This document shows positions 2,285 to 34,777 of a stretch of DNA of 35,215 bases, one piece after another; the stretch's first letter is position 1, and every line of letters begins with the position of its first letter. This stretch comes from an uncultured Pseudomonadales bacterium (GTDB taxonomy: Bacteria > Pseudomonadota > Gammaproteobacteria > Pseudomonadales > UBA7434): NCBI GenBank assembly GCA_905478995.1, contig CAJQKT010000010.1, positions 1 to 35,215 of the forward strand, written 5' to 3'. The notes below the pieces were generated by a model, which saw nothing but the letters and a program-made list of their open reading frames with translations, was not told the DNA's origin and ran no database searches. Position numbers and translations under genes: made by a program.

Positions 2285-3745
2285 ATGACCATTAATAGTT
2301 TGAACAATCCCTACGACGGTGATGCTTCGTTAAAGCACAACCAGCGCTGCGAATGCGCGGTCTGCGCCGCGCAAAAGCAGTCACCAATTATGTTAAGCGA
2401 TGCTGAACGCACCCGCCTAATGGAGCAGCAAGCTGATCAAATGCAGGTAAGTAGTGTGACCGATACTACTCACAAAAAGCAGTTTGACTCTAGTGAAGAC
2501 ATGCTCGATCAGGCGGTTGAAAACGCGATTGTTCGCGGTATTTTTGGTCACAATGATATGCATCGCCGCACCTTTATGAAAGCAGTTGGCGGCGGCACCA
2601 TGGCTTCTGTATTGGGCACGATGTTACCAATGGATTCCATCAAGGCCGCAGTGAAAGAGTCTGCTGGCCAGCTAGAAAAAACCAAGTTGAAAGTCGGTTT
2701 TGTACCCATCACGTGTGCAACCCCCATCATCATGGCGCACCCGCTGGGCTTTTATGAAAAGTATGGTCTAGATGTAGAAGTGATTAAAACGGCGGGGTGG
2801 GCAGTTGCTCGCGATAAATCGCTCAATAAAGAATACGACGCGTCGCATATGTTAACGCCCATGCCATTGGCAATGACGATGGGGGCGGGTTCTTCAGCTA
2901 AGCCTTACATTATGCCCGCGGTTGAGAACATCAATGGCCAGGCCATTGTATTAGCCAACAAGCACAAAGATAAGCGTGACCCGAAACAGTGGAAGGGCTT
3001 TAAATTTGGTGTGCCGTTCGAATATTCCATGCACAACTTTTTGTTGCGCTACTACGTGGCTGAATTTGGCATCGACCCTGATAAAGATATTCAAATTCGA
3101 GTCGTTCCACCGCCAGAAATGGTGGCCAACTTGCGCGCCGGTAACCTCGACGGTTACTTATCGCCAGACCCCTTTAATCAGCGCGCTGTGTGGGAAAAAA
3201 TTGGTTTCCTTCACATGCTGACTAAAGATATTTGGGAAGGGCACCCGTGCTGTGCGTTTGCCTGCAGCCAAGAGTTTGCTGTGACCAACCCTAACACCTA
3301 CAGCGCTTTGTTGAAATCTATTGTAGATGCCACGCAGTTTTCTTCAGACCCCGCTAACCGAAAAGATATTGCCAAAGCAATAGCGCCAAAAAATTATTTG
3401 AATCAGCCGATTCCAGTAATCGAGCAGGTGCTTACCGGTACCTATGCCGACGGTTTAGGTGCGGTTAAAAAAGTTCCCGATCGTATCGACTTCGACCCGT
3501 TCCCATGGCACTCAATGGCCGTGTGGATCCTCACGCAAATGAAGCGATGGGGCTATGTGGAAGGCAGTATCGATTACAAGAAAATTGCTGAGCAGGTGTA
3601 TCTGGCTTCTGATGCTAAGAAGATGCTAACGGAGTTGGGTTACGGTGCGCCGGACAAAACCTATGAGAACTACACCATCATGGGTAAAGAGTTCGACTAC
3701 AACAAGCCCGAAGAATATATCGCCAGTTTCGATATTAAGAGATAG
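2285..3745 (+). CDS. cynA: NrtA/CmpA/CynA-family ABC substrate-binding protein, probable cyanate binder
   Basis: Periplasmic solute-binding protein (486 aa) of the NrtA/CmpA family, which binds nitrate, bicarbonate or cyanate. A twin-arginine motif HRRTFMKAV (RR at 94-95) precedes a hydrophobic stretch, so export should be Tat-dependent. The binding fold follows from about residue 134, with family motifs PITCATPIIMAHPLGFY, YSMHNF and GHPCCAF (near 320). The leader before RR is very long (93 aa) and carries a cysteine cluster (Cys22, Cys24, Cys27). It is the first gene of the sigma-54 operon, followed by permease, ATPase and cyanase, the order of the cyanobacterial cynABDS operon. That order supports cyanate as ligand over nitrate, since no nitrate reductase is present. 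The ATG follows AGAGG. Family near certain; ligand inferred from context. Confidence 0.9.
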   Translation: MTINSLNNPYDGDASLKHNQRCECAVCAAQKQSPIMLSDAERTRLMEQQADQMQVSSVTDTTHKKQFDSSEDMLDQAVENAIVRGIFGHNDMHRRTFMKAVGGGTMASVLGTMLPMDSIKAAVKESAGQLEKTKLKVGFVPITCATPIIMAHPLGFYEKYGLDVEVIKTAGWAVARDKSLNKEYDASHMLTPMPLAMTMGAGSSAKPYIMPAVENINGQAIVLANKHKDKRDPKQWKGFKFGVPFEYSMHNFLLRYYVAEFGIDPDKDIQIRVVPPPEMVANLRAGNLDGYLSPDPFNQRAVWEKIGFLHMLTKDIWEGHPCCAFACSQEFAVTNPNTYSALLKSIVDATQFSSDPANRKDIAKAIAPKNYLNQPIPVIEQVLTGTYADGLGAVKKVPDRIDFDPFPWHSMAVWILTQMKRWGYVEGSIDYKKIAEQVYLASDAKKMLTELGYGAPDKTYENYTIMGKEFDYNKPEEYIASFDIKR

Positions 3746-3750
3746 AGACC

Positions 3751-4587
3751 ATGCCGTTAAATATGTCGTTACGCATGAAATCGATGCTGCTCACAGTAGT
3801 GTTCAGCATCGTACTCTTGGGCCTCTGGGAGCTGGTAGTTCAGCCCCCAGAGAGTACCGAGCCACTTACCGAGTATGAGATGTTGTTGGGGGCTTCCGAT
3901 CAGGAGGCGCGAGTGCCCCCACCATCGAAGGTTATCACTTTGGCATTTAAGGAGCTTAGCGACCCCTTTTACGATGCCGGCCCTAACGATAAGGGTATTG
4001 GTATTCAGTTGGGTTATTCACTCTATAGAGTATTAACCGGTTTTTTCATGGCTTTTTTGATTGCCATACCGGCAGGTTTTTTGATTGGCATGTCACCGCT
4101 GATGTACCAAACACTTAACCCCTTCATTCAGCTGTTGCGGCCCATCTCTCCGCTGGCTTGGATGCCGCTGGCCCTATTTGTTATCAGGGACTCCGAAGCA
4201 TCTGCCATCTTTGTCATTTTCATTTGCTCCATTTGGCCCATGTTGGTTAATACAGCTTTTGGTGTGGCAGGCGTGCGTGAAGATTGGTTGAAAGTTGCAA
4301 GTACACATGAACTGAGTCACTTGCGCACGGCCTTTACAGTGATTTTACCAGCAGCGGCACCAACCATTCTTACAGGGATGCGCATTTCAATTGGTATTGC
4401 TTGGCTTGTCATTGTTGCGGCCGAAATGTTGGTAGGAGGTACGGGTATTGGTTACTACGTTTGGAATGAGTGGAACAATTTAGATTTAACCGCTGTGATT
4501 TTTTCCATCTTAATGATCGGCTTGGTGGGCATGATTTTAGATTTACTACTGTCTAGTGCCCTGAAATTCGTTGAATACAAAGAGTAA
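3751..4587 (+). CDS. cynB: NrtB/CynB-type ABC transporter permease
   Basis: Inner-membrane permease (278 aa) for the NrtA-type system. It has an N-terminal membrane segment (about 10-30), a periplasmic stretch, and further membrane helices from about residue 88 to the end. The cytoplasmic EAA loop that docks the ATPase is visible around HLRTAFTVILPAAAPTILTG (near 190-210). Length and layout match the SsuC/NrtB group of the BPD_transp_1 family. It starts five bases after the binding-protein stop and ends six bases before the ATPase, so the three are translated as one unit. Substrate assigned from the neighbouring cyanase. Confidence 0.9.
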   Translation: MPLNMSLRMKSMLLTVVFSIVLLGLWELVVQPPESTEPLTEYEMLLGASDQEARVPPPSKVITLAFKELSDPFYDAGPNDKGIGIQLGYSLYRVLTGFFMAFLIAIPAGFLIGMSPLMYQTLNPFIQLLRPISPLAWMPLALFVIRDSEASAIFVIFICSIWPMLVNTAFGVAGVREDWLKVASTHELSHLRTAFTVILPAAAPTILTGMRISIGIAWLVIVAAEMLVGGTGIGYYVWNEWNNLDLTAVIFSILMIGLVGMILDLLLSSALKFVEYKE

Positions 4588-4593
4588 GAGAAA

Positions 4594-5514
4594 ATGTCGC
4601 AATATTTTGTTCACGTTCAAAACTTAGCTAAACGCTACCCGGTGAAAGGCGAGAAGGAGCCCACCACAATTTATGAGAACGCCAATTTTGGTATCCATAA
4701 AGGCGAGTTCGTTTGCATTATCGGTCATTCCGGCTGTGGTAAGTCCACTATCTTGAATGCTCTGGCAGGCTTAGATGAGCCTACCGAGGGTGGCGTGATT
4801 ATGGATGGCCAAGAGGTCGTTGGCCCAAGCCTCGATCGCGGTATTGTTTTTCAAAACTACAGCCTTCTACCGTGGCTGACGGTCTTTCAAAATGTTTATT
4901 TTGGTGTGCGCGCGCGCTGGCCTGGTTGGACTAAAGAAAAGCTCGACGACCACTGTAATAAATATTTAGAAATGGTGGGCTTGGGCGGTAAAGGCAAGCT
5001 CAAGCCTTCAGAGCTTTCGGGCGGTATGCGTCAGCGAGTCAGTATCGCGCGGGCTTTTGCCACCGAGCCCAAACTATTGCTGCTTGATGAGCCTTTCGGT
5101 GCACTAGATGCGCTCACAAGGGGGTTGATTCAAGAGGAGCTGGTGAAGATTTGGGAGGAAACCCAGCAAACAGTGTTCATGATTACGCACGATGTTGATG
5201 AAGCTATATTGCTGGCCGATCGCATCATAGTGATGTCTAACGGTCCTAAAGCCCGCGTGGCGGAGTCAGTTGTTGTTGATATTCCGCGCCCGCGTAAACG
5301 CAGCACCATTATTGACGACCCCGGCTATTACAAAATCCGAAATTATCTGGTCGACTTTCTTGTTAATCGCTCGGAGGAATTATCGGGCCAATCACCCCAG
5401 CCCAACGAATATCCCGTAACGGTCAATCCCGTGGCCATTAATCCGCCAGGGGATGCTGAGCAACCGATTGTAATTGATCAGGCGCCAGAAAAATTGGCTG
5501 TACCGGCCGCTTAG
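4594..5514 (+). CDS. cynD: NrtD/CynD-type ABC transporter ATP-binding protein
   Basis: Cytoplasmic ATPase (306 aa) energising the upstream permease. It has Walker A GHSGCGKST, Q-loop FQNYSLLPW, signature LSGGMRQR, Walker B LLLLDEPFGALD and switch histidine in MITHDVDEA, all intact. After about residue 255 there is a Pro/Val-rich tail of roughly 50 aa beyond the core domain, longer than the 265-aa ATPase of the second locus; its function is unknown. It lacks the fused binding domain seen in NrtC. It is six bases after the permease and 50 bases before cyanase. Confidence 0.9.
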   Translation: MSQYFVHVQNLAKRYPVKGEKEPTTIYENANFGIHKGEFVCIIGHSGCGKSTILNALAGLDEPTEGGVIMDGQEVVGPSLDRGIVFQNYSLLPWLTVFQNVYFGVRARWPGWTKEKLDDHCNKYLEMVGLGGKGKLKPSELSGGMRQRVSIARAFATEPKLLLLDEPFGALDALTRGLIQEELVKIWEETQQTVFMITHDVDEAILLADRIIVMSNGPKARVAESVVVDIPRPRKRSTIIDDPGYYKIRNYLVDFLVNRSEELSGQSPQPNEYPVTVNPVAINPPGDAEQPIVIDQAPEKLAVPAA

Positions 5515-24485: not shown

Positions 24486-25943
24486 ATGGCTCAGATCGAC
24501 ACCGACTATTTAATTGTGGGGGCTGGTGCGCTAGGTTTATCCTTTGCCGACTCACTACTCGATCATAGCGATGCGCATATTACATTCGTCGACCAGCACC
24601 CTAAACCGGGTGGGCATTGGAATGTCGCTTATCCGTTTGTAACGCTTCATCAACCCAGCGCAACCTATGGGCTTAATTCGATGGACATGGGCGATGACAG
24701 GATTGACATCGCTGGGCCTAATGAAGGTTTTTACGAGCTGGCTACAGGTACGCAGGTGCTCAGTTATTTTGAGCGTGCTATGCGCGAGCGGTTTATTCCC
24801 AGTGGGCGCGTAAGTTACTACCCCATGTCTAAGTATCAACAAAGTGAAAGTGGCGAGCATAGTTTCGTGTCTAGTTTATCGGGTAAGGAAACGCAGGTTA
24901 ATGTGCGGCGTAAGCTGGTTGATTGCCGCACGTTTACGGCTTCAGTACCCGCCACGCACAAGCGCAAGTTTGATATTACCGATGGCGTGCAGCTAACCAC
25001 GCCGGGCAAGCTGCCCGAAGCCTGGATGGGCGGCGCCAACCCACCCGAGCATTACGTGATTATGGGTGCGGGAAAAACCGCTATGGACGTGGGTGTTTGG
25101 CTGATGAATATGGGCGTTGATGCCGCTAAAATTTGCTGGGTTCGCCCACGTGAAGCATGGTTAATTAATCGAGCATCAACGCAGCCAGGTGCCAAATACG
25201 CCGCCAATACTACCGGCTGGCAGCTCGAGCAAATGCGCATTGCGGCAACGGCGAGTAACGCCGACGAGATTTTTCTGCATCTTGAAAAGCACGGCCATAT
25301 GCTGCGCATCGACCCAACTAGCTTGCCCGGCACATTTCACTTTCCGACAATCTCTCAAGGCGAGGTGGATTTGCTACGGCAGATCGAGCACGTCATCAAA
25401 ATTGGCCGCGTTAATTTGATTGAGCCTGGGTTACTCCATGGCGTAGCCGGCACGGCCACGGTTCCGGTTAATTCTTTATTTATCGACTGCACAGCTGTTG
25501 CCGCACCGCGTCTTGAGGTCACTCCAATCTGGCAGGACGACGTAATTATTCCGGGTCTGCTTCAGGCACCGTTGGTATCGCTGAGCGCCTCTGTGGTTGG
25601 CTTTATTGAGGCTGAATTTAACACTGACGAAGAAAAGAATGCTCTGGCCGTGCCTATGCAATTTACCGACACGCCAGCGGATTATCCACAGGTATTGCTG
25701 GGCAATGCGTTGAATCGCTTGCTCTGGTCTCAAAACGAAAAGGTTATGGGCTTTCTCAAAACGGCTCGTCTTGATCCGGCGGCCCGCATGCGAGCGGTTA
25801 TGGCCGATGTAAGTGATCAGGTTCGGGACGATGCGAGTCAAATCCGTGATGCTACTATTGCGGCTGTAGAAAATTTACAAAAGCTGTCAGCCGATAACCT
25901 TGCTGGCGACAATAACAGGCAGCAAACTGCGGCGGCTGGTTAA
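24486..25943 (+). CDS. FAD/NAD(P)-binding oxidoreductase, unknown substrate
   Basis: Flavoprotein of 485 aa. The N-terminal Rossmann motif IVGAGALGLSFADSL (about 9-23) and PGGHW (about 42-46) bind FAD as in flavin monooxygenase-like proteins. A second nucleotide motif, VIMGAGKTAMDVGVWL (about 192-207), should bind NAD(P). No signal peptide or membrane helix is present, and the last 40 aa are a charged Ala/Asp-rich helix. AGGA ribosome site before the ATG. Followed by small envelope-protein genes on the same strand, though gaps are large. Substrate not inferable. Confidence 0.75.
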   Translation: MAQIDTDYLIVGAGALGLSFADSLLDHSDAHITFVDQHPKPGGHWNVAYPFVTLHQPSATYGLNSMDMGDDRIDIAGPNEGFYELATGTQVLSYFERAMRERFIPSGRVSYYPMSKYQQSESGEHSFVSSLSGKETQVNVRRKLVDCRTFTASVPATHKRKFDITDGVQLTTPGKLPEAWMGGANPPEHYVIMGAGKTAMDVGVWLMNMGVDAAKICWVRPREAWLINRASTQPGAKYAANTTGWQLEQMRIAATASNADEIFLHLEKHGHMLRIDPTSLPGTFHFPTISQGEVDLLRQIEHVIKIGRVNLIEPGLLHGVAGTATVPVNSLFIDCTAVAAPRLEVTPIWQDDVIIPGLLQAPLVSLSASVVGFIEAEFNTDEEKNALAVPMQFTDTPADYPQVLLGNALNRLLWSQNEKVMGFLKTARLDPAARMRAVMADVSDQVRDDASQIRDATIAAVENLQKLSADNLAGDNNRQQTAAAG

Positions 25944-26012
25944 TTGAGCCGACTAACAGGCGTTGCTAACAACCGACTTCACGCTTAACAATTGTCTTTA
26001 CGGGATCAAATT

Positions 26013-26444
26013 ATGTTTAATCTATTGCTTGTCATGGTACTGCTGCCATCGTTCGCCGCCGCCGATGAATCAATCAACATAATAGGAACATGGCAAGGGG
26101 TCACTAATGCGGCAGTGATGGGCGTCGATAAGCACTACACAACGATTAACGCTGAGAATATTCGCTTTGTTAATGTCAAAATGGAATTGGTTTTTGATAG
26201 ACAACAAGGGCAGAACTTTTCCGGTTACAACCTAACGAATAATCACAAAGAGCCTGTGATTGGGGCTTTTCGCTCGAATATGAAAAGTGGTGTTCTTGTT
26301 GATTCTAACGGCACCACTATTTTCGATATGGTCGGCAACAATAAAATGGATGTTTGTTATGCTCATGTTATGAGCCATGGTGAGGCCAGTGCAGTCGCTT
26401 CATGCGCAGAGTTTGAGCGTCAAAGTATTCAGCCCGAGGATTAG
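26013..26444 (+). CDS. Hypothetical secreted protein
   Basis: 143 aa with a clear signal peptide (MFNLLLVMVLLPSFAAA, cleavage before DES). The mature part is beta-rich (GTWQGVTNAAVMG, GQNFSGYNL, MDVCYAHVMSHGE) and has two cysteines that could pair. Unrecognised family; periplasmic by leader. An in-frame TTG at 25992 would put seven polar residues before the leader, so ATG is preferred. Confidence 0.6.
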   Translation: MFNLLLVMVLLPSFAAADESINIIGTWQGVTNAAVMGVDKHYTTINAENIRFVNVKMELVFDRQQGQNFSGYNLTNNHKEPVIGAFRSNMKSGVLVDSNGTTIFDMVGNNKMDVCYAHVMSHGEASAVASCAEFERQSIQPED

Positions 26445-26792
26445 AAGGTCGATTTGTAGGCAGGTTGTCTCTTTTTTTCTAGTCCTGTTTTGCTTATTCT
26501 TGGTTAAGAAAAAAGCAACTAGCTGGCAGACTATCCCTCGACAATCTTCATCGCTAATTCCTCGCATTGCCAAATGCATAACGCTTACAGGGAACTTCTT
26601 CCCTCACGAACCACTCCAAACGCTAGCGGTCTTTATTACCTATCTATGGCACTACAAATCCACAGGCTAATAATCGTCCCTAAGCCCCCGTTGTGTCTTT
26701 TTTAAGTGGCATACGTAGTATTATAAAAGGCTATGGGCAGCCGTAGTGCGTTTAATGGGTTATTGATTAGGCTATTGAGAGGAAAACCTACA
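26445..26792. other. Intergenic region, no supported gene
   Basis: 348 bases with skewed, pyrimidine-rich composition. A small hairpin AGGGAA-CTTC-TTCCCT lies at 26589-26604 without a T-run. An open frame through it has no family signal and overlaps the previous gene in another frame, so I do not call it. Confidence 0.4.
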
Positions 26793-27576: not shown

Positions 27577-28116
27577 ATGTCATTAACTAAAGTTTTACTG
27601 CTATACACATTGGTGTTGGTCGGCGCCTGCCAATCAACGTCTACGCAGCTACCGCTCCGCACCGAAGCGTTTGTTGACTTAAACCGTTTTGCTGGAGACT
27701 GGTATGTTATTGCCAATATCCCTACCTTTATCGAAACCGATGCATACAATGCAATAGAGAGTTATGAAAAACCCGTAGACGGAAAAATTGCCACCACTTT
27801 TACATTTAACAAAGGCGATTTTGAAGGCGAAAAAAAGACTTATAAACCCATGGGGTTTGTGCGCGAAAATACGGGCAACGCCGTGTGGGGCATGCAGTTT
27901 ATCTGGCCAATTAAAGCGGAGTATCGCGTTGTTTATGTCGACGACGACTACGCGTTTACGATTATCGGCAGAACTAAGCGTGACTACGTGTGGTTAATGG
28001 CGCGGCAACCGATTATTGCCGATGCTGATTATCAGCGGCTTCTGAGTATCATTAAAGAAGAGGGCTACGATCTAGCCAAATTACGCCGTGTGCCTCAGCA
28101 GGCTAAATCACAATAA
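27577..28116 (+). CDS. blc: Lipocalin-family lipoprotein (Blc-like)
   Basis: Outer-membrane-type lipoprotein of 179 aa. The lipobox LVGAC places the lipidated cysteine at residue 18. The lipocalin signature appears as RFAGDWYVIANIPTF, with the later YRVVYVDDDYAFTIIGR strands and C-terminal RLLSIIKEEGYD of the bacterial Blc group. It probably binds lipids or fatty acids at the envelope. The ribosome site is weak. Family confident, ligand unknown. Confidence 0.88.
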   Translation: MSLTKVLLLYTLVLVGACQSTSTQLPLRTEAFVDLNRFAGDWYVIANIPTFIETDAYNAIESYEKPVDGKIATTFTFNKGDFEGEKKTYKPMGFVRENTGNAVWGMQFIWPIKAEYRVVYVDDDYAFTIIGRTKRDYVWLMARQPIIADADYQRLLSIIKEEGYDLAKLRRVPQQAKSQ

Positions 28117-28204
28117 TGGCGGGCCGCTTGAAAGCGTGTAGTGCAGACGTTACCTATCAAGAGCGGGTCGTTAAAAATATAGCAAGTTACACGGAAGCGG
28201 GCTC

Positions 28205-28711
28205 GTGATTGGTGATGTGTTTTTAGAGTGGGTCGAGGCTTATCGCGATTACGCATTATTTATTATCCCTGCCGTTGCCTTTCTTGAGGCCAGCGTGGGT
28301 ATAGGTCTGTTTGTTTCGGGCGCTATTTTGCTGAGTATTTGCACGGTTTTGTATGCCCAAGGCATTGCTACACTATGGCAAATGTTACCGCTGGCTTTTT
28401 TGGGGGCGACCACGGCCGACCATGTCGGCTATTTTTTGGGGCGTAAGCTGGGCCCAGGCTTTCATCACACGCGCTTTGCGCAAAAGTATAAAAATAATTT
28501 GGGCAAGGCTGAAGCGTTGCTGTTAAAACATGGCGAGCTGTCAATTATCATTGGCCGGCTTGTGCCGGCAGTGCGTAGTATTGTGCCTTTGCTCTCCGGC
28601 GTGAGTGGTTTGCCCGCGGCTAAGTACATGCGTTATGACATCATTGCCTGCGCTATTTGGGTTTCTGGGCTGGGGTTACTGGTGGCGGGTTTTGGCGGCT
28701 TATTGAGTTAG
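28205..28711 (+). CDS. DedA-family (VTT domain) membrane protein
   Basis: Polytopic inner-membrane protein of 168 aa. It has the DedA core: FLEASVGIGLFVSGAILL, GATTADHVGYFLGRKLG, and the GRLVPAVRSIVPLLSGVSGL region with conserved Arg and Pro. DedA proteins act in membrane homeostasis, in some cases as undecaprenyl-phosphate or lipid flippases. The start is GTG at 28205 after GGAAGCGG. Its last 81 bases and 59 bases beyond are repeated at 31355-31494 in diverged form, so a second related copy once existed nearby. Confidence 0.88.
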   Translation: MIGDVFLEWVEAYRDYALFIIPAVAFLEASVGIGLFVSGAILLSICTVLYAQGIATLWQMLPLAFLGATTADHVGYFLGRKLGPGFHHTRFAQKYKNNLGKAEALLLKHGELSIIIGRLVPAVRSIVPLLSGVSGLPAAKYMRYDIIACAIWVSGLGLLVAGFGGLLS

Positions 28712-28770
28712 GGCTCGGTGGGAAGGGATGCCTGAGGCGCAGAGATGATGTAAAGTAGGTTCTATCTGGC
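28631..28770 (+). repeat. Direct repeat, copy 1 (dedA 3' end and flank)
   Basis: 140 bases covering the last codons of dedA and the following DNA. They align without gaps to 31355-31494; I count 121 of 140 identical by eye (about 86%). The two copies flank the minus-strand ATP-grasp/dehydrogenase pair. Confidence 0.85.
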
Positions 28771-28869
28771 GTGTGCCAGAGGGGAAGGCTATACGTGACC
28801 GTCTTCTAAAACCACTCGCTATTGCTCGGCGTCACCTGTCTACCCATTTAATTATTTGTATGACCTGCC

Positions 28870-29889
28870 TCATACAATTCTATTTTTGATTTCTCGTCCT
28901 TCAGTCAAATTTATCAAACCTGAGCAAAACTGCTGAAAAGCAACCCTGTGCTTCTTTCTCAAATTGGCGTCTGAATAATGAGTAATAAGTAAATTGGGCA
29001 ATCGATTGGCGAGAATTCTTTGGACTCGAGATACATTTTGCAGACCAGAAACATAGGCGGTGGCGAGTTGATTGCTTTTTAAGGCTAAGAGCAATGCATT
29101 TTCATCAACTAGCTGCGGTCTAGCCAAGTTTATCAAACAAGCAGTTTCGCTTAATTTAGCCAGCTTGGCTTTATCAATAAATCCTTTGGTTTGCTCGGTT
29201 AACGGTAATGTTAAAATCAAATAATCAATGCTAGGTAAAACCGTATCGATATCGTTGACATCGTATACCTCATCATAGTCGGTGCCACCAAGATCCAGTT
29301 CCTGACGGTGCTTGCTGACACCAATGACCTTCATGCCTAGGGCACTGCACATCGCGGCTGTTTGATTGCCAATATTACCCGTTCCGACAATAGCCACGCG
29401 CAAATCCGAGATATCTTTACAAAAGCTTGGTTCGCTACGAAAAGCTCTTTGTTTGATTAGATGCGTAGGTAACATTTTTGAATCAGACAACATACATGCA
29501 AGGTTCATTTGAGCAACCCAAGCAGCGACTAAATCACCTGTCGTACTAACTTTAATACCTCGGTTTTGAAAGCTAGATAAGGCTAAATGATCAATACCGG
29601 TGCGTTGGCTGTATGCCCACTGTAGCGCAGTCATATGCTCCAGAAACTGCTCTGTTTCCGCTTGGGAAAGTACCGTTGCTGCGGAAAGCCATAGCGCTTC
29701 AACATCTTTCAGTTCAAGGCGATTTTTAACAATGATCTTATATTTAAATACATCGGGTTTATTTTTTGACAGCTTATGCTTTACCCGTTCAAAAAAACTC
29801 GGACTGCGATGAGCATAATAAAGGGCATCAAAACCTGCAGGTAAAGACGCGGTCTCCTTCATTGCTATTGGCATTAATACTCGAGTCAT
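28870..29889 (-). CDS. D-isomer-specific 2-hydroxyacid dehydrogenase-family protein
   Basis: 339 aa from the ATG at 29889, whose overlap with the ATP-grasp stop (ATGA) supports this start over 29907. The nucleotide-binding motif VAIVGTGNIGNQ has GTGNIG at 169-174. Substrate-side Arg257 (INLARPQLVDENAL) and a C-terminal His304 (ITHYSDAN) match the usual catalytic Arg and His. The catalytic Glu expected in the DVFE-type segment is absent: the region reads AYVSGLQNVSRVQ. The coenzyme loop VSKHRQ has basic residues rather than Asp, suggesting NADP. It may reduce a keto acid made or used with the adjacent ligase, or may be catalytically altered. Confidence 0.82.
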   Translation of the reverse strand: MTRVLMPIAMKETASLPAGFDALYYAHRSPSFFERVKHKLSKNKPDVFKYKIIVKNRLELKDVEALWLSAATVLSQAETEQFLEHMTALQWAYSQRTGIDHLALSSFQNRGIKVSTTGDLVAAWVAQMNLACMLSDSKMLPTHLIKQRAFRSEPSFCKDISDLRVAIVGTGNIGNQTAAMCSALGMKVIGVSKHRQELDLGGTDYDEVYDVNDIDTVLPSIDYLILTLPLTEQTKGFIDKAKLAKLSETACLINLARPQLVDENALLLALKSNQLATAYVSGLQNVSRVQRILANRLPNLLITHYSDANLRKKHRVAFQQFCSGLINLTEGREIKNRIV

Positions 29890-31097
29890 TTCGCCACGTT
29901 TTTCCATGCTTTATCTATTAGAAGTTTGATAATTATCAAGGAACGGTAAAACCCGGGACCGGGATCTTTCCATGAGCAATAAGCGCAACTCCGGCAGCGT
30001 AAAATAGTTTTCAGCCATGCTCTTATGCTAATAGTGCGGGCGTCCAATTTATCTTGCAAGGACCATAAATCAAGCAATAAATCAATCCAATATTTATGTC
30101 TCAACTGCGGCTCAATTTCCACATGAGATAAATTTTCGCCAACCAAATCTTGATAAGCCAGTAGAGGCAGGTTCAAGCCGCAGGCATGCAAATGCCCCAC
30201 AGATGTAAATGGCCTGGCATTAAAGTCAATCACATAATACACGCCCGTATTTTTATCTAAGAGCCATTCAATACCAAAAATGCCATGGTACTTAATCGAT
30301 GATAATAAACGTTGGGTTTGTTCAAACATCAGCGCTTCAGCTGCTGCATCCTGAGTACCCGGTATCTCGCCAAAGCTGGTGGTTCCTCTGTCGGGGGGGT
30401 ACTGGCGCCACCGTCGATGGCTGGCGATAGTGATAAGCTCACCTTTTTCATCGCATAAACCATAGGTGTCAAAAATATAACCGTCACCGCCTTGAATTAG
30501 CCGCTGGATTATCAACGCCTGGGCACCATTGTTTTTTACGTAATCGATCAGCTCATCTTCTGAAGCTAAAACCAGATTTTTTTTTGTAAGCTTACATTCT
30601 CGATTACCTTCATAAAACGGCTTGATAAAATAAGGAGCTGGGTTAGATGCTGCCCATGTAGTAACTTCTTCAAGACTGGGCTCATTAATTGCGGGAATAA
30701 CAGGCACACCAACTTTTTCTGCCAGCAGATAGAGTCTATTTTTGTTGATTATCTGCGTCAAAGTAGGGTGATCATTTTGCCACATTAGGTAATATGATTT
30801 TAGTTGCTCACGATTTTTGGCGAGCAATAAGGCATGTTCATCGCTGGAGGCAATAAGAACTAAAGGCTCAACCTGTTGCTTTCCATGACTGATCAACCAA
30901 TCCATTAATTCTTGGTCAGTATCAATTTTGGAAAGATCAATCACATCACAACAAAATGAATACCTTACTGGTTCACTTTTTTTAAAAACAGCGGCGGTAA
31001 TTTGTGCTCCGCCGACGGCTAGCGCTCGAATTGTCGCCAGCCCAGTCCCCGCTCGGCTTAGCACAAGCACTTTAGGTTTTTGCAGGGTTTCCTTCAT
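29886..31097 (-). CDS. ATP-grasp domain protein, probable carboxylate-amine ligase
   Basis: 403 aa. The N-terminal pre-ATP-grasp fold (KVLVLSRAGTGLATIRAL) is followed by the central domain, with PYFIKPFYEGNRE and ALIIQRLIQGGDGYIFD as ATP-binding strands. GIFGIEWLLDKNTGVYYVIDFNARP is the metal-binding Glu...Asn core typical of the family. A C-terminal region of about 80 aa includes three Cys in RCRSCAYCSW. ATP-grasp enzymes form amide or thioester bonds through an acyl phosphate; the partner dehydrogenase suggests a small biosynthetic module, product unknown. First gene of a minus-strand pair; no good ribosome site is visible. Placement between repeats suggests it was inserted. Confidence 0.82.
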   Translation of the reverse strand: MKETLQKPKVLVLSRAGTGLATIRALAVGGAQITAAVFKKSEPVRYSFCCDVIDLSKIDTDQELMDWLISHGKQQVEPLVLIASSDEHALLLAKNREQLKSYYLMWQNDHPTLTQIINKNRLYLLAEKVGVPVIPAINEPSLEEVTTWAASNPAPYFIKPFYEGNRECKLTKKNLVLASEDELIDYVKNNGAQALIIQRLIQGGDGYIFDTYGLCDEKGELITIASHRRWRQYPPDRGTTSFGEIPGTQDAAAEALMFEQTQRLLSSIKYHGIFGIEWLLDKNTGVYYVIDFNARPFTSVGHLHACGLNLPLLAYQDLVGENLSHVEIEPQLRHKYWIDLLLDLWSLQDKLDARTISIRAWLKTILRCRSCAYCSWKDPGPGFYRSLIIIKLLIDKAWKNVAK

Positions 31098-31576
31098 AAA
31101 ATTCGATTACGCTAAAGATTTCAGTTAAGTTTTATAGGTTGCCCAAACCACATGCGTAAGCTAACTACTAACAGGGCATTTGCTTCGCTTATATTCTAAG
31201 ACACTGGGGGGCTACATATGCCACTCTCTAGATTATTTTGAGATGTATCATACACAAAAAAGCAGAGTCATTGCTGATCCTGCCAATCTGTGAAGAAAAA
31301 GCTTTATTGAAACTGGGGCCATGAAACTGAAGCTGGTGTCAGATTACAGATTCTCGTTACGACCGCATTGCCGGTGCAATTTGGGTTTCTGGGCTAGGGT
31401 TGCTGATGGCGGGTTTTGGCGGCTTGTTGAGTTAAGGCTTGGTGGGTCGGCATGCCTGAGACGCGGAGATGATGTAAAGTAGGTTTCATCTGGCGATTAA
31501 GCTTTGTACACTCTGGGTGTCTTTCTGCGTATTTTCAAGTATATTAAGGCGAAATCATTTTACGGAAAACTAAATC
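31098..31576. other. Intergenic region containing a dedA remnant
   Basis: 479 bases. The main content is the second copy of the dedA 3' end (31355-31494). Upstream DNA has no recognised gene; GAAACTG is repeated around 31306-31333. Downstream sequence to the PsiE start is AT-rich and probably carries its promoter, which I cannot place. Confidence 0.5.
31355..31494 (+). pseudogene. dedA 3'-end remnant (direct repeat copy 2)
   Basis: Reading from 31355 gives RYDRIAGAIWVSGLGLLM and then AGFGGLLS followed by a stop, closely matching the last 26 codons of the intact DedA at 28205-28711. The 59 bases after the stop also match. No start codon or upstream dedA sequence remains. Either a diverged dedA paralogue lost its 5' part, or a duplicated segment drifted after insertion of the intervening genes. 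Confidence 0.8.
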
Positions 31577-32050
31577 ATGCCCAACGAGCCCAGCGATTCC
31601 GAGCAACAAAAGCCCTCTGCCATCGATCGCGTGCTCGAGGTGGTTCTTGAGCGAAACCGATTAAATCGACGCTTGCATTGGACTACCATCATCAGCGAGA
31701 AAACCTTGCTTGGGGTTATCGGGCTGTTGACGGTCGTAGCATCAGCGGACGCAATCTTCGAAATTTTTATGGCCCGCGAGGTAACACTCCCTGATCTGTT
31801 TCTTTTATTTATCTATGTTGAAATCATTGGCATGATTGGAGCGTTCTACTCAACCAATCGGATCCCTGTGACATTGCCTATCATCATTGCCATCACGGCG
31901 CTCTGTCGGCTGATTGTGATGCAGAGTAAGGAAATGGACGCCCTGACGCTGCTCGCAGAGGCTGGTGCGATATTTATACTCAGTGGTGCCGCTTATTTAA
32001 TGAGCCTCAAGGATAAAATGAGCTTAGAAAAACTAGAAAATAGAGATTAA
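31577..32050 (+). CDS. psiE: PsiE-family membrane protein
   Basis: 157 aa with a charged cytoplasmic N-terminus (about 40 aa) and four predicted membrane helices. The stretch LPDLFLLFIYVEIIGMIGAF, followed by ITALCRLIV, matches the phosphate-starvation-inducible PsiE family. Molecular function is unknown in the family, and no pho box could be confirmed here. A modest GGA site precedes the ATG. Confidence 0.75.
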   Translation: MPNEPSDSEQQKPSAIDRVLEVVLERNRLNRRLHWTTIISEKTLLGVIGLLTVVASADAIFEIFMAREVTLPDLFLLFIYVEIIGMIGAFYSTNRIPVTLPIIIAITALCRLIVMQSKEMDALTLLAEAGAIFILSGAAYLMSLKDKMSLEKLENRD

Positions 32051-33124: not shown

Positions 33125-34777
33125 ATGATCAACACCAAATTTTCTAAAAGTATACTGAATACACTCCGCGCGTCTTTGGCGGCAAACTTTTGCATCTTTC
33201 TGGCAAGCCCGGCTGCACTGGCGGCTAGCGACAAACCCAACATCCTCATTATTTGGGGGGACGATATTGGTCAGACCAATATAAGCGCATATAGCCATGG
33301 GGTAATGGGCTACCAAACGCCTAATATTGATAGCATTGCCCGAGATGGCATTATGTTCACCGACTATTACGCTGAACAAAGCTGCACCGCTGGGCGCTCT
33401 GCGTTTATTACCGGCCAGCACCCGGTGCGCACGGGTTTGACCAAAGTAGGCACGCCCGGGGTGGCGACTGGGATTCAGGCTGAGGATCCTACGCTGGCTG
33501 AAATGCTCAAACCGCTGGGCTATGTCACGGGTCAGTTTGGTAAAAACCACCTTGGTGATCTCGATGAACACCTGCCGACCAACCATGGCTTCGATGAATT
33601 TTTGGGTAATCTCTACCACCTCAATGCGGAAGAGCTGCCAGAGCGTCCTGACTATCCGAAAGAGGCCTGGTTCCAGTCTATGGCCAATCCCCGTGGCGTT
33701 ATTCACAGCTATGCGAAAGCGAATGTGGAGGGCGCTGCCGCCAATGGCAGCCAGCAGGTGGGAGCATTGTCAGGTCCATTTATCAACAAAAACGCAGGGA
33801 CCATAGTCGACTCGGGCCCACTGACCCGCAAGCGTATGGAAACAGTGGATGAAGAATTTGCCGCCGCCGCCAAAAAGTTTATAAAAAGTGCGCACAAGGC
33901 TGACAAACCATTTTTTGTCTGGCTGAATACTACCGGTATGCACTTTTGGACTCACCCTGCGAAAAAACATTTGGGCAAATCGGGTCAGGGTTTTTATAAC
34001 GATGTTATGGTGGCGCACGACGAACTGGTTGGTGAAATGCTTCAGCAGCTCAAGGACTTGAATATCGATGATAATACCATCGTGATGTATAGCACCGACA
34101 ACGGTCCGCACTACAATACCTGGCCAGACGCGGCTATCTCGCCATTTCGCAGCGAGAAAAACTCTAACTGGGAGGGTGGGTTCAGAGTGCCCGCGATGGT
34201 GCGCTGGCCGAGAAGAATACCCGCGGGTCGAGTTTCCAATAGTGTTATGTCCCACCTCGACTGGGTGCCGACCCTGATGGCTGCCGTTGGCGAAGACAAG
34301 GTGGTAAGCCAGTTGAAAGAGGGTCGCAGCTTTGGTGATAAAAAGTTTAAGGTTCATCTCGACGGCCACAACTTTCTGCCCTATCTGAAAGGCGACGAGC
34401 CTGCAGGGCCTCGCAAAGAGTTCTTTTATTTTAGTGATGATGGCCAATTACTCGGTTTACGTACCGGCGACTGGAAAGTGGTCTACGCCGAGCAGCGTGC
34501 CAAGCAGTTTGATGTGTGGCGAGAACCTTTTGTATCCCTACGCATACCCAAACTGTTTAATTTACGACGCGATCCCTACGAGCGTGCCGACACCGACTCT
34601 AATGGCTACAATACGTGGTGGGAAAATAACAGCGCGTGGATTTTTTATGGTTCCGCAAAGGCGCTCCAGTTTGGTCAGTCCTTTAAGCAGTTTCCCTCGC
34701 GACAAAAGCCTAACAGTTTTGCAATTGATGAGGCCATGAAGCAGCTTACGCAATACCAGCCATTTAGACCCGATTAA
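33125..34777 (+). CDS. Arylsulfatase-family (type I, formylglycine) sulfatase
   Basis: Exported sulfatase of 550 aa hydrolysing sulfate esters. A signal peptide ends near PAALAASDK. The metal site begins at NILIIWGDDIGQ (DD). The modification motif is SCTAGRSAFITGQHP, whose Cys would become formylglycine; the third position is Ala instead of the common Pro (CxAxR form, a known variant). The downstream GKNHLGD and STDNGPHYNTWPD motifs supply further metal and sulfate ligands. The C-terminal domain is complete (FNLRRDPYERAD). No maturase is in the window. It stands alone, so the substrate is unknown; it may release sulfate from algal or other organic sulfates. Confidence 0.9.
   Translation: MINTKFSKSILNTLRASLAANFCIFLASPAALAASDKPNILIIWGDDIGQTNISAYSHGVMGYQTPNIDSIARDGIMFTDYYAEQSCTAGRSAFITGQHPVRTGLTKVGTPGVATGIQAEDPTLAEMLKPLGYVTGQFGKNHLGDLDEHLPTNHGFDEFLGNLYHLNAEELPERPDYPKEAWFQSMANPRGVIHSYAKANVEGAAANGSQQVGALSGPFINKNAGTIVDSGPLTRKRMETVDEEFAAAAKKFIKSAHKADKPFFVWLNTTGMHFWTHPAKKHLGKSGQGFYNDVMVAHDELVGEMLQQLKDLNIDDNTIVMYSTDNGPHYNTWPDAAISPFRSEKNSNWEGGFRVPAMVRWPRRIPAGRVSNSVMSHLDWVPTLMAAVGEDKVVSQLKEGRSFGDKKFKVHLDGHNFLPYLKGDEPAGPRKEFFYFSDDGQLLGLRTGDWKVVYAEQRAKQFDVWREPFVSLRIPKLFNLRRDPYERADTDSNGYNTWWENNSAWIFYGSAKALQFGQSFKQFPSRQKPNSFAIDEAMKQLTQYQPFRPD

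Follow-up and report, generated by a model that had tools for sequence, protein, structure and literature searches.

Introduction

Homology-facilitated illegitimate recombination, in which insertion is coupled to deletion and microhomology of 3-10 bp is found at the junctions, has been reported in Acinetobacter, Streptococcus and Pseudomonas stutzeri (PMC3240628). In E. coli, circularised linear DNA entering by one crossover left 109-950 bp duplications of the homologous end (PMC3240628), and homology-facilitated illegitimate recombination has also been proposed for the T6SS effector arrays of Vibrio cholerae, where displaced 3'-end remnants occur (PMC5361080).

The window, i.e., the whole stretch of 35,215 nucleotides analyzed here, carries between dedA and psiE an operon for an ATP-grasp ligase-like and a D-2-hydroxyacid-dehydrogenase-like protein. 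The locus resembles the events compiled in PMC3240628 in that foreign DNA appears to have replaced resident DNA, a short identity marks a junction and mobility genes are lacking. It differs from them by the additional 141-base copy of the end of the neighboring gene at the far junction, and its donor was not traced. With the V. cholerae arrays (PMC5361080) it shares an apparently acquired module behind which the 3' end of a gene remains, whereas here dedA stays whole, the remnant is a duplicate and there is no array. The locus offers a readable case of a gene pair apparently gained without a visible mobile element, in which the scar persists and an empty site is available for comparison.

Organization of the Locus and of the Direct Repeat

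The features of the locus are the following (window coordinates):

28205..28711, plus strand: intact dedA-family gene, VTT domain, 168 aa (PF09335, E 2e-16)
28631..28771, plus strand: repeat copy 1, native dedA 3' end and 60 bases downstream
28772..28869: left flank of the operon, which probably begins with native sequence from downstream of dedA; left junction placed only approximately
28870..29907, minus strand: D-2-hydroxyacid-dehydrogenase-like protein, 345 aa (PF02826, 2-Hacid_dh_C, NAD-binding domain, E 2e-32)
29886..31097, minus strand: ATP-grasp ligase-like protein of 403 aa, encoded by the upstream one of the two operon genes (Pfam CPSase_L_D2, barely over the cut-off)
31098..31354: region upstream of the operon, with 39% GC; relatives showed no homologue
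31355..31495, plus strand: repeat copy 2, dedA 3'-end fragment with both ends abrupt and a decaying reading frame
31489..31495: right junction, where copy 2 joins psiE upstream sequence that G007 also has; GGCG on both sides
31577..32050, plus strand: psiE-family gene, native right neighbor (PF06146; 97% aa identity to G007)

Both minus-strand open reading frames are intact and overlap by 22 bases. They are bracketed by a direct repeat, 28631-28771 and 31355-31495, whose copies lie 2724 bases apart and align without gaps over 141 nt with 122/141 identical positions (87%), confirming the original prediction of ungapped copies of about 140 bp, about 86% identical by hand count. That prediction had described the repeat as the dedA 3' end; the end of dedA is indeed present, its last 81 bases (27 codons including the stop) falling inside copy 1, but the repeat also runs 60 bases past the dedA stop, and is therefore better described as the dedA 3' end together with downstream spacer sequence. 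Elsewhere in the window, on both strands, the best ungapped match to the 141-nt stretch reached 64/141, and in the whole 2.5 Mb assembly the stretch occurs only as copies 1 and 2.

The two copies are identical at 70/81 positions of the coding part and at 52/60 of the downstream part, while in the coding part they agree with the sister genome G007 at 67/81 (copy 1) and 62/81 (copy 2), the downstream part matching G007 with gaps and clearly more poorly. Since the copies are closer to each other, they either split after the divergence from G007 or copy 2 derives from a lineage nearer than G007. Private coding changes number two in copy 1 and seven in copy 2, and the latter, which include the amino-acid changes I-R, C-G and V-M, suggest that copy 2 evolves like dead sequence. 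Beyond 28771 the flank of copy 1 matches that one genome at 26/60 positions, a value reached by 0.2% of random pairs, but the right flank of copy 2 matches the dedA downstream sequence of the same single genome at 11/60 only. Copy 1, but not copy 2, thus continues like G007, which makes copy 2 a fragment with two abrupt ends. No dedA remains were found upstream of copy 2 in any frame, and this, with its abrupt right end, indicates a small fragment and excludes the remains of a full second dedA left in place. We read copy 2 as a non-functional scar, a decaying piece of dedA at the right edge of the insert.

Empty Site and Distribution of the Gene Pair

The search for an uninterrupted junction in relatives, proposed together with the original prediction, gave a positive result in G007, the only one of the 11 other genomes of the genus to have both dedA (94% aa identity to the window protein) and psiE. 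In G007 dedA ends at C4:106694 and psiE starts at C4:107146; the two genes are adjacent, 452 bases apart, and the pair is absent. Homology between the window and G007 reaches about 28781, breaks, and restarts at 31489, and the interval that G007 has in place of the insert consists of 294 bases unrelated to the window, with no match in the other genomes searched. Of the proposal that a cassette was inserted between two dedA-related copies or replaced the 5' part of one, the insertion is supported, as one specific to this lineage, but not its placement between two dedA-related copies or the 5' replacement. Recombination between the repeats had also been envisaged as a way of removing the pair; because its 294 bases are unrelated to the window, G007 is ruled out as such an excision product. 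The empty site is known from this one genome, and the G007 spacer may itself have changed.

The pair is missing from every one of the 11 other genomes searched in the genus, the ATP-grasp gene being found in 0/11, with weak matches only in G010 (24-31% identical). At E<=1e-30 a relative of the ATP-grasp gene was present in one other genome among 390 of the order, and at E<=1e-35 the dehydrogenase gene had a relative in none of the other genomes among 369 of the class; relatives of the ATP-grasp gene on plasmids are only about 25% identical. The distant bin L063 has the same two genes in the same order, also overlapping, with identities of 43% and 33%, and this repeated order of ATP-grasp and dehydrogenase genes argues that the pair is a real unit. 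The other seven loci from the search of genome contigs have the ATP-grasp gene without such a dehydrogenase beside it. L063 also has, close to the pair, another ATP-grasp gene of a different kind, D-Ala-D-Ala-ligase-like (3614-4834).

Among the 30 genes of the window the pair has the lowest GC content (41.5 and 42.9%) and GC3 (0.37 and 0.40), and its relative codon use falls within the range of the host. The comparison of codon use suggested earlier thus shows a shifted base composition but an ordinary relative codon use. Taken together, the empty site, the patchy distribution and the low GC and GC3, the ordinary codon use notwithstanding, support a horizontal gain in this lineage.

The Encoded Enzymes

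The ATP-grasp protein has a predicted ATP-grasp fold (model pLDDT 82), for which Foldseek returned 497 PDB matches at E<=0.001, about equally distant from biotin carboxylases, PurK and L-amino-acid ligases. It has the predicted fold in common with the ATP-grasp carboxylate-amine ligases and related enzymes (BacD/YwfE, PurK, biotin carboxylase), but is only about 15% identical to them, and no close solved relative was found. Its own relatives are 38-46% identical, and the motifs HGIFGIEWL and DFNARPF are invariant in an alignment of nine members; to judge from this alignment, the protein represents a distinct subfamily in which both are conserved. The dehydrogenase-like protein, whose predicted structure was too poor for use, has the NAD-binding domain and the conserved Arg and His of D-isomer-specific 2-hydroxyacid dehydrogenases, but it lacks their usual catalytic Glu (positions assigned by sequence alignment only) and scores well under every NCBIfam cut-off. 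In the L063 dehydrogenase the Glu is likewise missing and the Arg position is occupied by His, again as placed by sequence alignment only.

A VanHA-like D-lactate pathway was rejected, since the dehydrogenase is weak on all VanH models (60 bits vs. a cut-off of 540) and the ATP-grasp protein has no match to any Ddl-type Pfam model. The operon gave no PADLOC match as a defense system, and a literature search for a pair of ATP-grasp and dehydrogenase enzymes returned no match. As far as the fold families permit a commitment, the ATP-grasp protein would ligate two partners, a carboxylate and a nucleophile, one of which the dehydrogenase-like protein would prepare or alter. Tentatively, the operon could encode an undescribed two-enzyme pathway occurring in distant bacteria, composed of a dehydrogenase-fold protein with an altered active site and of a new subfamily of ATP-grasp ligases. 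About 5% of the single substitutions in the two genes create a stop, and had the operon been resident throughout the 13% divergence of the repeat copies, several stops should have accumulated in the absence of selection; the reading frames have stayed stop-free, and the operon is therefore probably functional. It is probably maintained stably, with coupled expression of its two genes, and would make or modify a small molecule or a surface component. The operon directs attention to an uncharacterized ATP-grasp subfamily, the partner of which is also kept in at least one bacterium that is only distantly related.

Origin of the Insertion

The reading that we favor, with a probability of about 0.55, is the horizontal gain of the operon after the split from G007, replacing most of the dedA-psiE spacer through illegitimate-looking junctions. 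According to this reading, the two-gene operon would have entered by horizontal transfer once the lineage had separated from its sister, and the foreign DNA would have taken the place of most of the spacer by illegitimate, perhaps homology-facilitated, recombination. The 141-base piece of the dedA 3' end may have arrived with the donor DNA or have been copied from the resident dedA during the same event, and would have been fused to the sequence upstream of psiE across the short GGCG identity, dedA itself remaining whole. These four bases are a weak sign of microhomology. Observed directly are the empty site, the rarity of the pair, the two copies of the repeat, the abrupt limits of copy 2 and an intact operon; the route of recombination, the history as one event and the role of the enzymes are inferred. 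No donor genome in which the operon adjoins dedA was found, and the source of copy 2 was not traced. Overall, the locus looks like an ordinary horizontal gene acquisition by messy recombination.

The main rival, possible though clearly less probable, is integration by a Campbell-type single crossover. The incoming DNA, circular from the start or circularised, would have brought the operon together with a stretch of the dedA 3' end, and this stretch would then be present in duplicate, once on each side. The length of 141 bases fits the range of duplications reported in E. coli (PMC3240628), and the left sides of the copies are as expected, copy 1 running into dedA and copy 2 starting abruptly after foreign DNA. 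Such a crossover, however, predicts native dedA downstream sequence to the right of copy 2, while it is the sequence downstream of copy 1 that, in the comparison with the one genome G007, resembles the relative; copy 2 stops exactly where homology to the psiE region of G007 restarts, and an independent change of the G007 spacer at the same point would be required. The operon might instead have come as part of a block of dedA, cassette and fragment, formed elsewhere and received whole from another lineage of the genus by homologous recombination anchored in dedA and psiE. The mosaic dedA, which differs from that of G007 at 13/350 positions in the 5' part and 28/157 in the 3' part (P = 4e-7) and therefore points to recombination breakpoints within the gene, speaks for a block transfer of this kind, but the odd part may be the near-identical tract at 27970-28400, identities of 80-90% being common elsewhere in the window, and the genus yielded no donor genome; we consider it unlikely. 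Slightly less probable still is a history that began with a small duplication of the dedA end in tandem, the operon entering between the copies in a later, independent step: the 13% divergence of the copies indicates an old duplication, yet both edges of copy 2 coincide with the edges of the replaced region, for which one event is simplest.

A site-specific element using the dedA 3' end as attachment site, with the repeats as attL and attR, would explain why they flank a foreign segment and why the gene end is intact in one copy. This reading is disfavored and very improbable, since the segment holds only the two enzyme genes and no integrase or transposase, nor was any seen in the window, in line with what the original prediction had noticed; a second copy of the element is missing from the genome, the repeats, 13% diverged, are not near-identical, and there was no match in phages or IMG/VR contigs. 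At the junctions searched there was no tRNA, no Rfam family and no repeated element. The sequence 31335-31362, suspected to be a REP/IS-like end, was present only here when searched with 3 mismatches allowed in the genome itself and in ten related ones. A mobile element was rejected for the lack of an integrase, a tRNA, an Rfam match, further copies of the junctions, and matches in phages and viral contigs. The preferred reading remains that of a gain by illegitimate recombination.

The interval 25900-26780 (ORFs 25992-26444 and 26377-26670) has no homologue at the matching G007 locus, so that the neighborhood is variable at more than one point. The tract 27970-28400, covering the 3' part of a lipocalin gene and the 5' part of dedA, is 99-100% identical to G007 with flanks mostly at 80-94%, and judging by these identities is likely a recent recombination tract. 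The sulfatase gene of the window (33125-34777) resembles one in L066 (11565-13169, Pseudohalioglobus), and in both cases a few genes separate it from the ATP-grasp gene; as G007 has the sulfatase region of the window without the operon, this co-occurrence is probably a coincidence. In G009 the contigs L040 and L041 both break off within dedA and carry different versions of it, a lipocalin lying upstream in one and an unrelated neighbor downstream in the other, which would correspond to either two dedA copies or a mixture of strains.
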